Source: Candidatus Calescibacteriota bacterium
Lineage (GTDB): Bacteria; CAIJMQ01; JAADFP01
Direction of reading: 5' to 3'
Length of the DNA: 32,801 nt
Assembly: GCA_021162785.1 (NCBI GenBank)
Contig: JAGGYA010000020.1
Location: 1 to 32,801 of the forward strand
Below are positions 1,509 through 21,668 of the stretch, piece by piece. Positions within the stretch are counted from its first letter, which is position 1, and every line of letters begins with the position of its first letter. Made by a program: the position numbers and the translations under genes. Under the pieces are notes generated by a model, which was not told where the DNA came from, searched no databases, and worked only from the letters and a program-made list of their open reading frames with translations.

Positions 1509-3794
1509 CTATATGTATTTCAGTTCAATTAGTACAGTGCCATTTACATGGGGTGGGAAATTCACTTTTTTCCATAGTCTTTTCATAAGCTCAAAGTCGC
1601 AGTTTTTACCTTCCCAGCGTTTTACCTCTACCTTCTTCACTCCTCCACCTTCTACTTTAAGCAGGATGGTTAAAGATTTGAGTTCCCAGTTCTTGAAAAT
1701 TCTCTCAAGTTCTTTACCTATGCTTTTTCTTACCAGTTTCTCCACATCTTCCAGTCTCAAATCTTTTGGGCAGACTGCGTTAGTAAAGAAGAGGGTGGGC
1801 TGGGGAGTGGGCTTCCAGGTTACATTCTGTGGATAAGATTTTATTTCTTCTCGGGCAGTGAACATTTTCACTCCTCCTGCTTTTACAAAACCAATGCCCG
1901 TTAATCCCTCACCTACTGCGTAATTACTTACTCCCTGGGGGAGGGGCAGAGGTTGTTTGACGGTAACCACTTCTCCAGTTTCTCTTACCACTGTATCTAC
2001 AGCCACAAAAGATGTGTAAGCAGTCATAAGATGATATTTGAGTCCAAGTTTTTTCACTTCTTCTTTAACATCTGCTCCCAGGTTTGCATAATCCGAAAGT
2101 TGTGCTATTTTCTCCCTTGCCCAGAGGTATTTAAGTGCTGTGTTATTTTTGTCTTCCATTTCTTGAGTGATTAGAATCTCCCGTCTGTATTCTCCTCCTG
2201 GAGTGTTGCCTTTTACAACGATTCTCCCTTGAGGCTGGGTGTATTTCCCGAAAATAACCAGAGGTCTTTCACTGAAAAGATCGGGGAAGGAAGAGGGCTG
2301 GATATCGTAAGCATCAAATCCTTCAAATTCCACTTTTATATCTGTGAGGAGAGGTGAGCTGACATATTTTATAAATCTTTCTGCCATTACTTTTGCTTCT
2401 TTCTGGTCAGTTACTACAAAAGGGCATCCCTGTCCCACTCTGGCAATTCCCTCAATGAGGTAACGATTCACACTTTTCCCAATCCCAAAGGCAAAGAAGT
2501 TTGCCTGATGGAGGTTTTTTCTTATGAGATCAAAGGTTTCCTTTTCCACGCATACATATCCATCCGTGGCAATTACTACTATGCGTGAGAGGCCCTCTTT
2601 TTTAGGAAGGGAGAGGGCCTTTTTGAGAGCCTGAAGTATTCTGGTTCCTCCACCTCCACGCTGGGAGAGAAGCATGGCTATGGCTTTTTTCTTGTTTTCA
2701 GGAGTGGCAGGTAGAGGGTAAGGAGAAAGGGCTTTAGAACCTCCGGAGAAAAAGAGGATGTTGAAGTAATCTCCCTTCCTCAAATTTTCAATGATTTTCT
2801 TAATTAATGCCTTAGAAACTTCCAGTGGGAAACCATACATGGAACCGGAGACATCCACTATGAAAATATATTCCCGGGGTGGAATACTTGCAGGGGTTAT
2901 TCTTTCAGGGGGTTGAACCATGAGAAGGAAGAAGTTTTCCTCTTTACCCGGATAAAGGAGAGCACCTGTCTTGATGGCTTTCCCTTTGAGGGTATAGCGA
3001 AGGATAAAATCGCGATTCCCACCTTTCACCTCATCCTGGGAAAGGAGTATCTTAATTCCTTTTCCTTCTTCCTTTATAACCACCTTATGGGAAGGAACCC
3101 AGATTCTTTTAACGGGCACAGGAGTATTTAGATTCACTTCTATGTGAAAAATGTAGGGTGGTTCTTCTCCTTCATGGAGATAAGGGGTGGCTACCCAGTT
3201 ATCTTCTTTCTCCAGTGTGTTTTCATCCTTCTCTCCTGTGTACCTGGGGCCAACCACGGTGGGGAATACAAATTCATATATTCCTTCTTCCGGCACCAGA
3301 ATTTCTGTGTACTCCACCACCACCTCTACCACATCTCCTGGCATAATGTTGGCAACTTTCATCTGAAAGACATTTGGTCTTTTCTGTTCCAGAAGTGATG
3401 CAGTTTTACCCTGATCCTTTGCTGACTGGTAAATTTTCTGTGCGACTTCTCTCTCTTCAATTTTGGCTTCGATTGTCCGATTACCTATTCTCATCCTCAT
3501 AGCGTGAATGGCGGATCTGGTTCCCAACGGGAAAACATAAATTGCTTCAATGGTTCTCTTTCCTTCATTTTTGTAAATCTGGGTGAGTTCAACTTCCGCA
3601 ATTACTCCGGCAATTTTTACTTTAGCTTTTGTGCTGAGAAGAGGGAAATGGTCCACTTCCGGATCTCCTTGGACAAAGAAGTAGGGAGAGAGTTTCTTCT
3701 CCTCTCTTTCCAGTGGGGGATTAGAGATGAAAGGGGTTGCAAAAAGTGTAAAACCCACCATTATTAGGGTGACCAGGATCATCATTCTTCTCAT
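1509..3794 (-). CDS. Secreted VIT / von Willebrand A domain protein
   Basis: A 761-residue protein with a signal peptide (residues 1-20, ending LFAT). A VIT domain follows (about 40-170, with FPLGTRSAIHAM and MPGDVVEVVVEY), then a vWA domain (about 306-480). The metal-ion-dependent adhesion site is complete: D314-V-S316-G-S318, T384 and D411. A segment reading YHLMTAYTSFVAVD, typical of bacterial VIT proteins, lies near 610-625. The last 75 residues (LTILLKVEGGGVKKVEV, then KVNFPPHVNGTVLIEL) resemble the TonB-C/AgmX-type domain. No sortase signal or C-terminal membrane helix is visible, so it is probably periplasmic or released. It has a strong ribosome site (AGGAGG, about 8 nt from ATG) and its own sigmaE-type promoter, and it lies just downstream of the sigma/anti-sigma pair. 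Adhesion or envelope maintenance is inference. Confidence 0.88.
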   Translation of the reverse strand: MRRMMILVTLIMVGFTLFATPFISNPPLEREEKKLSPYFFVQGDPEVDHFPLLSTKAKVKIAGVIAEVELTQIYKNEGKRTIEAIYVFPLGTRSAIHAMRMRIGNRTIEAKIEEREVAQKIYQSAKDQGKTASLLEQKRPNVFQMKVANIMPGDVVEVVVEYTEILVPEEGIYEFVFPTVVGPRYTGEKDENTLEKEDNWVATPYLHEGEEPPYIFHIEVNLNTPVPVKRIWVPSHKVVIKEEGKGIKILLSQDEVKGGNRDFILRYTLKGKAIKTGALLYPGKEENFFLLMVQPPERITPASIPPREYIFIVDVSGSMYGFPLEVSKALIKKIIENLRKGDYFNILFFSGGSKALSPYPLPATPENKKKAIAMLLSQRGGGGTRILQALKKALSLPKKEGLSRIVVIATDGYVCVEKETFDLIRKNLHQANFFAFGIGKSVNRYLIEGIARVGQGCPFVVTDQKEAKVMAERFIKYVSSPLLTDIKVEFEGFDAYDIQPSSFPDLFSERPLVIFGKYTQPQGRIVVKGNTPGGEYRREILITQEMEDKNNTALKYLWAREKIAQLSDYANLGADVKEEVKKLGLKYHLMTAYTSFVAVDTVVRETGEVVTVKQPLPLPQGVSNYAVGEGLTGIGFVKAGGVKMFTAREEIKSYPQNVTWKPTPQPTLFFTNAVCPKDLRLEDVEKLVRKSIGKELERIFKNWELKSLTILLKVEGGGVKKVEVKRWEGKNCDFELMKRLWKKVNFPPHVNGTVLIELKYI

Positions 3795-3824
3795 TTTTTC
3801 TCCCTCCTTTCTTCTTCCACTACT

Positions 3825-3853
3825 TTAGACAGTGTGAGATTAGAAAAAGTTCC
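3825..3853 (-). promoter_or_regulatory. ECF (sigmaE-type) promoter of the VIT/vWA gene
   Basis: On the minus strand GGAACTT (3853-3847) is followed after exactly 16 nt by GTCTAA (3830-3825). The predicted start near 3818 leaves a leader of about 24 nt that carries the AGGAGG ribosome site. Both hexamer regions and the spacing are identical to the element upstream of the ECF sigma gene at 5256-5284, although the spacers differ in sequence. That argues for a shared sigma factor. Confidence 0.82.
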
Positions 3854-3860
3854 CTTAGAT

Positions 3861-4646
3861 TCAGGGGGAGGGGTGAATGTTGAGCCAGAGAGTTATTTTC
3901 CCTTCTTTCTTTGAAGGAGGAGGGAGGGGTTTTTTCAACTCACCGAGATTTTTAAGTTCTTCCAAGAAAAAGTTGTATTTTTCTACGGGAATTTCCAGTT
4001 TAATATAATCGTTTCCCCGGGAAGAGACTGTTAAAAGCACCTCACCTCCCAGCCTGGTTACCAATTTCTCTATTTTTTCCAGGGTAACTTTCTCCTTTAA
4101 TTTTTCTGTTTTCTTCTTTCCTGCACCGGATGGTGCATAGGCTCTGGACATTTTGTTGATTGTTTCTCTCCCTTTCAGCCCCACTTCTTCTTTTGTAGCC
4201 AGGGGGAGAGGTTGTGGTAGGAGGAGAACAAGTTGAGGATACTTTCCCTCTTCTTTCTCGCTTACTTTTATTTTCTCCTCTATTGATGGAGGAAGCTGAG
4301 CTACATGTTTGTCTCTCATGAATAGGGGTTGAAGAATATGGAGGACTATGAAAACCATGGCTGCAACACCTACAACTTCCAGAGGAAGTTTAATATGGAG
4401 AGGGGAAAAGAGTCTCTCCCAGACTCTTGGTTTCCGGAGGCGAGTATGAAGTTTGTAAATGAAATCCTCCGGAGCCTTAACCTTTTCCAGGGCATTCATG
4501 GTTTGGAAATAGGATTTCCACCGGAGGAGTTCCTCCCTGCAAGCAGGACAGGTGGAAAGATGCTCTTTTACTTTTCTTTCCTCCTCTTCTTCTAAAGCTC
4601 CTTCCACATACAGGGAGAGGAGTTCTTTAACCTTCTTGCATTCCAT
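3861..4646 (-). CDS. Membrane anti-sigma factor with zinc-finger (zf-HC2) N-terminus
   Basis: A 261-residue protein. The N-terminal anti-sigma zinc-binding domain has C3, H29, C33 and C36 (H-x3-C-x2-C in HLSTCPAC). One transmembrane helix lies at about 87-108. After it comes a Pro-rich extracytoplasmic linker and a C-terminal domain (about 185-261) with GGEVLLTV and IPVEKYNFFLEELKNLGEL, resembling the DUF4349/DUF2275 class often found on such proteins. The expected role is to hold the ECF sigma factor at the membrane and release it on an envelope signal. Its ATG overlaps the sigma-factor stop by one base (TAATG), implying coupled translation at near equal amounts. The promoter for the next gene lies just beyond its stop. 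The sensed signal cannot be read from the sequence. Confidence 0.9.
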   Translation of the reverse strand: MECKKVKELLSLYVEGALEEEEERKVKEHLSTCPACREELLRWKSYFQTMNALEKVKAPEDFIYKLHTRLRKPRVWERLFSPLHIKLPLEVVGVAAMVFIVLHILQPLFMRDKHVAQLPPSIEEKIKVSEKEEGKYPQLVLLLPQPLPLATKEEVGLKGRETINKMSRAYAPSGAGKKKTEKLKEKVTLEKIEKLVTRLGGEVLLTVSSRGNDYIKLEIPVEKYNFFLEELKNLGELKKPLPPPSKKEGKITLWLNIHPSP

Positions 4647-5251
4647 TAAATCAACCCCCTCAGTTTCTCTTTGAGTTTCTCTCTTGCCCGGGCTATCCGG
4701 GATTTCACCGTCCCCGCTTTTAAGCCAGTTATTCCCGTTATCTCCTCGTAAGAAAGGTCATCAATATCCCTGAGAATTATGAGGGTTTTGAATTCGGGGG
4801 GAAGGGAGTTTATGGCTTCCTGGATAATCCTTTCCTTTTCTTTCCTTTCAATGATGGTAAGTGGGGCAAGGGATTCATCCCCTACTTCCCTTTCAAGATT
4901 TCCATTTTGAAGGTTTAAAGGGTCATCCAAGGAAAATCTGCTCTTTTCTCTTTGCAGTTTGAGGGTTTTAAGCCGGTTTCTGCACATATTTACAGTAATC
5001 CGGTAAAGCCAGGTAGAAAAGGAAGAACGAAATTTAAATTTTCTTAAGCTATTATAGACCTTTATAAAAACTTCCTGGGCACATTCTTCAGCCTCCTCAT
5101 AATCTCCCAAGAATCGATAACAGAGATTGAATACTTTATCCTGATACTTCATCACAATGTTATCAAATACCTTTTTATCTCCGGAAAGAAAGGATTCTAT
5201 CCAGTTTTTTTCCTCTTCCACAGGTATTTTTCTTCCCCTTTCTCTCTCCAT
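4646..5251 (-). CDS. ECF RNA polymerase sigma factor (RpoE-like)
   Basis: Up to 201 residues with region 2 (DKVFNLCYRFLGDYEEAEEC, then AQEVFIKVYNSL and FSTWLYRITVNMCRNRLK) and region 4 (INSLPPEFKTLIILRDIDDL, SYEEITGITGLKAGTVKSRI). Regions 1 and 3 are absent, as usual for ECF factors. It is followed directly by its anti-sigma gene. The start is uncertain. The ECF-type promoter at 5256-5284 has only 4 nt between its -10 and the ATG at 5251, so transcription would begin at or inside that ATG. Either the message is leaderless, or translation begins at the GTG at 5221 (residue 11), which follows a purine-rich tract, GGAGAGAGAAAGGGG, and still leaves all of region 2. Autoregulation is strongly suggested. 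Confidence 0.92.
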   Translation of the reverse strand: MERERGRKIPVEEEKNWIESFLSGDKKVFDNIVMKYQDKVFNLCYRFLGDYEEAEECAQEVFIKVYNSLRKFKFRSSFSTWLYRITVNMCRNRLKTLKLQREKSRFSLDDPLNLQNGNLEREVGDESLAPLTIIERKEKERIIQEAINSLPPEFKTLIILRDIDDLSYEEITGITGLKAGTVKSRIARAREKLKEKLRGLI

Positions 5252-5255
5252 TTAT

Positions 5256-5284
5256 TTAGACAAATTTCTTAAGAAAAAAGTTCC
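5256..5284 (-). promoter_or_regulatory. ECF (sigmaE-type) promoter of the sigma/anti-sigma operon
   Basis: On the minus strand GGAACTT (5284-5278), a 16-nt spacer, and GTCTAA (5261-5256). This matches the known E. coli sigmaE consensus closely and is the same as the element before the VIT/vWA gene. ECF factors commonly transcribe their own operon. Confidence 0.82.
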
Positions 5285-5328
5285 CCTGCTTCATATTATC
5301 ATGGGGGGAGGAAGAAATAAAAGAAAAG

Positions 5329-5402
5329 TGGGCGGTGGAGGACTTGAACCTCCGACCTCCACGATGTCAACGTGACGCTCTAACCAGCTGAGCTAACCGC
5401 CC
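5329..5402 (-). tRNA. tRNA-Val(GAC)
   Basis: A complete cloverleaf. The acceptor is GGGCGGT paired with ACCGCCC, the D-arm is GCTC/GAGC, the anticodon loop is TTGACAT (GAC), and the T-arm is GGAGG-TTCAAGT-CCTCC. The discriminator is A and CCA is not encoded. It is the last of three tRNAs after the long operon; a T-rich tract follows on the minus strand. Confidence 0.95.
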
Positions 5403-5431
5403 TCATTAATATTTTACCTTAAATTTTTGAG

Positions 5432-5516
5432 TGCCGAGGGCCGGACTCGAACCGGCACGCCCAAGGTGGGCGAGGGATTTTAAATCCCTTGCGTCTGCCA
5501 CTTCCGCCACCTCGGC
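5432..5516 (-). tRNA. tRNA-Leu(TAA)
   Basis: A class II tRNA with a long variable arm (TCGCCCACCTTGGGCG). The acceptor is GCCGAGG/CCTCGGC, the anticodon stem is AGGGA/TCCCT with loop TTTAAAA (TAA), and the T-arm is GCCGG-TTCGAGT-CCGGC. The discriminator is A. Confidence 0.95.
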
Positions 5517-5520
5517 TTCG

Positions 5521-5592
5521 AGGCGGCGCCCGGATTCGAACCGGGGTATCGCGGCTTTGCAGGCCGCTGCCTTGCCACTTGGCTACGCCGCC
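5521..5592 (-). tRNA. tRNA-Cys(GCA)
   Basis: The acceptor is GGCGGCG/CGCCGCC, the anticodon stem is GCGGC/GCCGC with loop CTGCAAA (GCA), and the T-arm is CCCGG-TTCGAAT-CCGGG. The discriminator is T. It begins 15 nt after the stop of the M24 gene and 4 nt before tRNA-Leu, so the three tRNAs may be cut from the long operon transcript. Confidence 0.95.
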
Positions 5593-21278: not shown

Positions 21279-21668
21279 GGGGGCGATCTGGGTTCGACAG
21301 GGAGGTAAATCCTGGGAAGAGGCATGCCGGGGTTGCCGGGAGGCCCCGTCCCGAGGTAAACTCGGGATCCCGATCTGGCATCGGGATAAAAACCCGGCAA
21401 AGAAATAAACGCCGACTGCGTTAACGCTCTGGCTGCATAAGATGCAGCCACATCCTCTTCACCTTGCCTGCAGGTGAAGAAGGGTGTCGGTAGCAGGCTC
21501 TCCTTGTCTCTCCTGCTCCGGGGGAGATGAGGGAAAAATTACCGGAGCTGGTCCCTCCCTCTCTGTCCAGGGGAGAGTGAGGGATGAGATAAAATCCCTG
21601 GACTAAGCATGTAGTTATCTTCCCGGGATAACTCTCTGGACGCGGGTTCAATTCCCGCCGCCTCCACC
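21279..21668 (+). ncRNA. ssrA: tmRNA (ssrA)
   Basis: Transfer-messenger RNA that rescues stalled ribosomes. The 5' end is GGGGGCGATCTGGGTTCGAC and the 3' end carries the TTCAATT T-loop (CGGG-TTCAATT-CCCG). The 7-bp acceptor stem is GGGGGCG/CGCCTCC, with discriminator A at 21666. The tag frame runs GGC to TAA (about 21396-21440) and encodes GKEINADCVNALAA. With the tRNA-like Ala in front this gives AGKEINADCVNALAA, close in form to the Bacillus tag (AGKTNSFNQNVALAA) and ending in ALAA. A cysteine in the tag is unusual. Several pseudoknot-like GC hairpins follow the tag. CCA is not fully encoded. Confidence 0.95.

Follow-up and report, generated by a model that had tools for sequence, protein, structure and literature searches.

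Genes and promoter sites at the locus

The window (the whole stretch analysed, 32,801 nucleotides of contig JAGGYA010000020.1 from a Candidatus Calescibacteriota genome) carries on its minus strand the genes for an ECF sigma factor, a membrane anti-sigma factor and a VIT/vWA protein (Table 1). The initial annotation had claimed that two identical promoters serve these genes. Both sites were found on this strand exactly as claimed, with 7+6 core bases shared, a 16-nt spacer in each and different spacer sequences. P2 lies between the stop codon of the anti-sigma gene and the start of the VIT/vWA gene; about 30 nt separate its -10 element from the ATG, and the leader contains a ribosome-binding site.

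Table 1. Coordinates in the window of the genes, domains and promoter sites at the sigma/anti-sigma/VIT locus.
Feature	Coordinates	Strand	Basis or remark
VIT/vWA gene, 761 aa, hydrophobic signal-like N-terminus	1509..3794	-	ORF, Pfam, alignment
C-terminal TonB-C/AgmX-like tail, degenerate	1512..1793	-	aligns with NF033768-bearing tails
vWA domain, complete MIDAS (D314, S316, S318, T384, D411)	2427..2867	-	VWA_3 2.5e-17
VIT domain, residues 53-162	3309..3638	-	PF08487 1.2e-33
Shine-Dalgarno sequence AAGGAGGGAG of the VIT/vWA gene, inside the P2 leader	3800..3809	-	sequence
P2, GGAACTTTTTCTAATCTCACACTGTCTAA (GGAACTT-N16-GTCTAA)	3825..3853	-	precedes the VIT/vWA gene
Anti-sigma factor of 261 aa with zf-HC2, a single membrane span and a periplasmic part	3861..4646	-	ORF, Pfam, alignment
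zf-HC2 domain of the anti-sigma factor (His-Cys-Cys motif)	4536..4640	-	PF13490 2.5e-13
ECF sigma factor, 201 aa	4646..5251	-	ORF, Pfam; ATG at 5251
Alternative in-frame GTG of the sigma gene	5219-5221	-	codon 11, preceded by AAAGGGG
P1, GGAACTTTTTTCTTAAGAAATTTGTCTAA (GGAACTT-N16-GTCTAA)	5256..5284	-	4 nt before the sigma ATG
tRNA-Val, tRNA-Leu, tRNA-Cys	5328..5592	-	just upstream of P1, strand shared with the sigma gene

Pfam analysis of the sigma factor detected Sigma70_r2 (2.8e-18) and Sigma70_r4_2 (1.1e-15), with no match to r3, and the protein scored 115 bits against TIGR02937 (sigma70-ECF; cut-off 42.9). With only the sigma2 and sigma4 regions and an anti-sigma gene next to it, the factor belongs to the ECF (group 4) class. 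Its score against the RpoE model TIGR02939 was 143.8 (E 6e-42), below the curated cut-off of 236.15. The anti-sigma factor classifies as a ZAS protein by the N-terminal His-x3-Cys-x2-Cys of its zf-HC2 domain, in which H29, C33 and C36 are nearly invariant among aligned homologues. A single membrane span, judged by eye, follows this domain, and the periplasmic part shows weak similarity to DUF4349. The Pfam scan detected no RseA domain in it, which sets it apart from RseA-type anti-sigma factors. Its Shine-Dalgarno sequence is strong (-11.9 kcal/mol).

No terminator-like site was detected between the three tRNA genes and the sigma gene, and read-through from the tRNA genes is a possible sigma-independent source of the window's sigma factor. 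Downstream of the VIT/vWA gene, the minus strand of positions 1-1164 contains an excisionase-like HTH_17 ORF (871-1164) and, by eye, an apparent reading frame for an SDH/ClpP-type serine protease. A tmRNA gene with the tag peptide ADCVNALAA lies at 21279-21668.

The VIT/vWA protein, a predicted target

The MIDAS residues are invariant among the aligned VIT/vWA homologues. An AlphaFold model of the window protein (mean pLDDT 63) matched ITIH1 (6fpy) with a Foldseek E of 2.3e-33; with a VIT domain followed by a MIDAS-bearing vWA domain and a predicted ITIH core fold, the protein is ITIH-like. Against the TIGR03788 sortase-target model it scored 421.2 bits, below the cut-off of 551.65, and no LPxTG-type C-terminal anchor was seen in its sequence; it is related to that family and is not a member of it.

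The C-terminal tail alone gave no match to NF033768 (AgmX/PglI; cut-off 40 bits), but homologous tails matched this model with 75.3 and 96.8 bits (E down to 6e-28). Its predicted structure is beta-alpha-beta-beta-alpha-beta (pLDDT 80.6), and TonB/TolA C-terminal domains were prominent among its best Foldseek matches, although with E > 0.05. Alignment and model together suggest that the tail belongs, as a weak member, to the AgmX/PglI/TonB-C group. The initial annotation was right that the protein is secreted and carries a MIDAS, and probably right about its AgmX-like tail, which is undetectable on its own and aligns with the tails of NF033768-bearing homologues.

Frequency of the motif in the window and home genome

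Shuffled versions of the window contained a mean of 0.03 motif matches, and none of 100 shuffles contained two. In a whole-genome scan of the kind that had been proposed as a check, GGAACTT-N16-GTCTAA occurred only twice in 949,252 bases, and the reversed-pattern control did not occur. Because the home genome is a metagenome-assembled genome (MAG) of 64% completeness, further targets may be missing from it. A larger regulon in this genome was considered and rejected, as allowing up to two mismatches at N16 gave 19 sites, no excess over the 38 of the reversed control. A DUF4139 gene was likewise rejected as a target here; the gene, at G000 C23, belongs to a more distant subfamily and has no motif.

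Conservation of the promoter at predicted target genes

All genomes compared were MAGs, and organism names are given as deposited, several with uncertain labels. Sigma orthologues with 51-54% identity were found in four genomes of the same class (G001, G003, G004 and G006, the last deposited as Candidatus Ratteibacteria). In G001, G003 and G004 a motif pair surrounds the sigma and anti-sigma genes, each time with different spacers. In G006, P1 at the sigma gene is GGAACCT-N16-GTCTAA and the sigma contig ends inside the anti-sigma gene; the exact motif precedes a VIT gene on another contig. The five other whole-genome matches in G002, G005 and G006 did not precede a sigma, VIT or DUF4139 gene.

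The gene behind P2 varies among these relatives. It encodes the tailed VIT/vWA protein in the window and tail-less VIT/vWA proteins of only 25-29% identity in G001 and G004. In G004, P2 is followed by VIT and then by a DUF4139 gene, and in its sister G003 no VIT/vWA gene was found and P2 is kept directly before DUF4139. In this natural deletion the promoter has outlived its target gene, as a regulon predicts.

The promoter also precedes VIT/vWA genes in Ratteibacteria relatives, Omnitrophota, Nitrospirota and a deltaproteobacterial phylum. For counting we used the pattern GGAAC-N16..19-GTC, which is less strict than the complete core of 13 bases. Its background, counted with the true sites, is 0.034 per 260 nt. 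In the Nitrospirota sample, 296 genomes were searched and the motif was sought within 260 nt upstream of VIT. The motif was present before 42 of the 48 close VIT homologues examined (4/4, 3/3, 11/12 in Nitrospirota and 24/29 in the phylum of the deltaproteobacterial MAG G061, where one more upstream region was cut by a contig end), whereas none of 18 distant homologues (Nitrospirota) had it. With the stricter GGAACY..GTCTAH, the close sets gave 4/4, 3/3, 7/12 and 17/29, against 0/18 distant. The sole Nitrospirota exception is the second target gene in the order sigma, anti-sigma, P2, DUF4139, VIT, and there the motif stands where predicted. Co-occurrence of the genes, another of the checks that had been proposed, held as well: the sigma factor was found with E <= 2.1e-42 in all 11 searched Nitrospirota genomes with a close VIT (beside G062), whereas the search passed 1e-35 in none of the eight with only a distant one. 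The related loci in the VIT/DUF4139 set showed an anti-sigma gene beside the sigma gene.

Targets need not be linked to the sigma gene. Besides P1, the motif precedes a VIT/vWA gene on another contig in G062 (Nitrospirae), where one further site precedes neither a VIT nor a DUF4139 gene, and a DUF4139 gene on another contig in G063 (Omnitrophica). In G601, sigma and VIT lie 540 kb apart on one contig. G085 has P2 before a VIT gene behind the anti-sigma gene and a second copy before an unlinked DUF4139 gene. P1 and the VIT promoter of G060 have the variant GGAACC in common, which, judged from the two sites, is shared drift.

In summary of the target side, the claim that the ECF factor controls the VIT/vWA gene is strongly supported by a promoter that is conserved across phyla, also at unlinked genes, and absent at distant VIT homologues; on this evidence the predicted ECF-to-VIT regulon is real and widespread. 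In some genomes the promoter precedes a DUF4139 gene instead of, or besides, VIT, and by the same sign DUF4139 is a second predicted target family, which the initial annotation had missed. The motif was absent before the DUF4139 counterparts of G001 and G002, which belong to the more distant subfamily, and before that of G005, a genome in which no sigma orthologue was found (best 1e-29).

Comparison of the loci L059 and L206 (G063 and G085) suggested that VIT and its P2 were lost jointly from G063, which retains the DUF4412 and glycosidase genes that follow. At L061, from a Fibrobacteres MAG, a divergent VIT gene adjoins the sigma and anti-sigma genes and is preceded only by a weak GGAACTTTTCC...GGTCTTA-like site. 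Monophyly of the sigma factor for all VIT-linked cases was not retained, as the tree backbone was weak; the 24 sigma genes of the set may represent two or more lineages.

Position of the sigma start codon relative to P1

P1 was aligned for the 24 sigma genes of the VIT/DUF4139 set. In 23 of them the start codon lies between 8 nt before and 7 nt after the end of the -10 element. The ATG abuts GTCTAA exactly and in frame in 12 genes, overlaps the -10 element in three (its G being the G of GTC) and follows it by 4-7 nt in eight, two of which also have an overlapping alternative. The sole exception, G066, has a normal 26-nt sigma leader with a ribosome-binding site. VIT leaders from P2 measured 23-61 nt in all 41 cases, and in an Omnitrophota group with short anti-sigma factors (see below) the first ATG is mostly 13-41 nt away. 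Most sigma starts have no Shine-Dalgarno sequence, in contrast to the anti-sigma starts: the median Shine-Dalgarno energy was -1.6 kcal/mol for the sigma genes versus -7.1 kcal/mol for the anti-sigma genes (Wilcoxon, p 6e-5). In G063, G085 and G099 the first ATG of the sigma gene is the only in-frame start. We dropped GTCTAAATG as a general Omnitrophota trait, since among 12 matches it was in frame only in these three genomes and the control gave 8 matches.

The GTC/GTT of ECF -10 elements has been placed at -11 to -9 (PMC6411747) and GTC at -12 to -10 (PMC3397946), which puts the expected +1 at base 6 or 7 past GTCTAA. Where the ATG abuts or overlaps the -10 element, it is then upstream of +1 and absent from the P1 transcript, and an ATG 4-5 nt past GTCTAA lies at the transcript 5' end at best. 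This suggests that many P1 transcripts carry the anti-sigma gene without the sigma start codon, that is, negative feedback. In the window, with its ATG 4 nt from the -10 element, sigma could possibly still be made from P1 by a leaderless mRNA or from the internal GTG.

The earlier statement that the ECF factor controls itself therefore stands for the operon but probably not in the sense of positive self-amplification, since at 23 of 24 loci the start codon falls within P1 or at its margin. Across phyla, the sigma start would be built into the sigma factor's own promoter, and the induced transcript would encode the inhibitor without sigma, making a self-limiting circuit for VIT/vWA and DUF4139; we put this forward tentatively, as a nearly even call that leans slightly against. 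Since P1 would make anti-sigma mRNA, a sigma-independent source of sigma is required. Candidate sigma-independent promoters were found upstream of P1 in G001 (TTGACG-N17-TATCCT), G003, G004, G006 and G668. A housekeeping promoter at this position was rejected as a general feature, the best sigma-70-like score being 7.9 versus 7.4 in shuffles over 23 loci.

Proposed circuit and alternatives

From the computed promoter conservation, subfamily specificity, co-occurrence, geometry and domains, we infer promoter recognition by the sigma factor, a signal, the sign of the feedback and a target function. The zf-HC2 membrane anti-sigma factor would hold the ECF sigma factor until an envelope signal at the periplasmic DUF4349-like part releases it, as the family suggests. 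Free sigma would recognise GGAACTT-N15/16-GTCTAA, a specificity to which the conservation points. From P2 it would turn on the secreted ITIH-like VIT/vWA protein with its complete MIDAS and TonB/AgmX-type tail, and in other genomes a secreted DUF4139 protein would be turned on also or instead. In most relatives the P1 transcript would contain the anti-sigma gene with a strong ribosome-binding site and no sigma start, giving self-limiting feedback, and sigma would be supplied by a sigma-independent upstream promoter or by read-through. Judged by their fold, the targets most likely act under stress as binders or scaffolds for some component of the periplasm or outer membrane. As a whole, a compact envelope-stress regulon with self-limiting feedback appears quite likely.

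Most ECF operons are positively autoregulated (PMC8103513), and the same could apply here if P1 mRNA is translatable, either as a leaderless message with its start 4-7 nt from the -10 element or from the internal GTG at codon 11; P2 would still drive VIT/vWA, with no special negative feedback. The window, G061 and several Nitrospirota, whose start codon 4-7 nt after the -10 element is at most 1-2 nt from a plausible +1, are consistent with this, as is G066 with its normal leader and ribosome-binding site. The geometry is contrary to a positively autoregulated sigma mRNA at 15 of 24 loci, namely the 12 abutting and three overlapping ATGs, which are upstream of any plausible +1, and G063, G085 and G099 offer no other in-frame start. 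We give positive autoregulation a substantial minority chance.

The third position of VIT/vWA behind the anti-sigma gene also allows a role as co-regulator of the anti-sigma factor, like periplasmic CnrX or RseB, a feedback element made from P2 and not an effector. In Omnitrophota, small proteins of the Metal_resist/LTXXQ family, which comprises periplasmic sensors and chaperones, take that position, again following a second identical promoter. However, several genomes carry VIT/vWA unlinked from sigma, and in G003, G063, G066 and G099 it is missing though sigma, anti-sigma and P1 persist, which makes such a role rather improbable. As for P2 itself, about one exact match is expected by chance per genome of such size (0.03 per 32.8 kb), and VIT/vWA might simply be the third gene of the operon or have a housekeeping promoter. 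The motif keeps its position across several phyla, with spacers that have diverged, and is absent at distant VIT homologues, which leaves a chance match at P2 only a very slight probability compared with the regulon proposed above.

Relation to known systems

E. coli sigma-E (RpoE), for which the -35 box GGAACTT has been reported (PMC8103513), likewise combines an RpoE-like sigma factor, a membrane anti-sigma factor and envelope targets. The present system differs in having zf-HC2 in place of RseA, no RseB/RseC-like neighbours, a regulon of one or two genes and a sigma start inside or at P1. In the C. glutamicum SigH-RshA system, a SigH-dependent promoter drives only the anti-sigma gene and housekeeping promoters make both products (PMC3489674), which is the circuit proposed here; in C. 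glutamicum, however, that promoter precedes rshA, whereas the present one is placed at the start codon of sigma, and both the family and the targets are different. Streptomyces sigma-R and sigma-R' arise as different sigma products from self-independent and self-dependent promoters (PMC4921905). In that case the self-dependent transcript is the longer one and adds 55 residues (PMC4921905), whereas here it would be too short.

ITIH1 and TIGR03788 proteins share the VIT domain and the vWA domain with MIDAS, but the window protein ends in a TonB/AgmX-type tail. Cupriavidus CnrYXH-type ECF systems consist of a sigma factor, an anti-sigma factor and a periplasmic third protein. They resemble the Omnitrophota variant with a Metal_resist third gene; by contrast, the VIT/vWA or DUF4139 gene here is a separate transcription unit that can be unlinked. 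The initial annotation knew of no described pairing of this kind, and our literature search, which left most subscription journals outside its coverage, found none between an ECF factor and VIT; nor did it find one between an ECF factor and DUF4139. The protein families are known singly; as far as checked, the regulon, its wide occurrence and the placing of the sigma start codon are new.

The predicted ECF envelope-stress regulon would for the first time give a regulatory context to DUF4139 proteins and to the bacterial VIT/vWA proteins that end in an AgmX-type tail, one common to candidate phyla, Nitrospirota and deltaproteobacterial lineages. The promoter specificity would allow regulon members to be read directly from genomes. 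The embedded start codon would reverse the textbook expectation of self-amplifying ECF operons and predicts that sigma activity raises anti-sigma and not sigma.

Occurrence of the promoter in other systems

In 384 Omnitrophota genomes, GGAACTTTTN11-14GTCTAA gave more than 150 sites versus 16 for the reversed control. Many were pairs about 1.1 kb apart flanking another sigma factor with a short anti-sigma factor, and the second promoter of this group stands before a small periplasmic protein (Metal_resist/LTXXQ in the two cases scanned). The layout of two identical GGAACTT-N16-GTCTAA promoters thus appears in a second Omnitrophota system (L183-L202 and others, e.g. L186:500-2145), and RND efflux genes are sometimes near the Metal_resist/LTXXQ loci. 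Sequence comparison points to the two-promoter layout as a recurrent design, for which a role in envelope stress would be the natural reading.

At L059:7548-8192 and its counterparts in G085 and G099 (Omnitrophota), the anti-sigma factor has lost the zf-HC2 domain and keeps the membrane span and periplasmic part; the sigma factors of these three are N-terminally shortened. In Clostridia (L062:741, L064:5971, L083:4208, L085:6621, L110:1592 and L121:4140), the 3' end of the sigma gene holds GGAACTT...CGTCTA, immediately ahead of the anti-sigma gene, a layout that would likewise yield the anti-sigma factor only.
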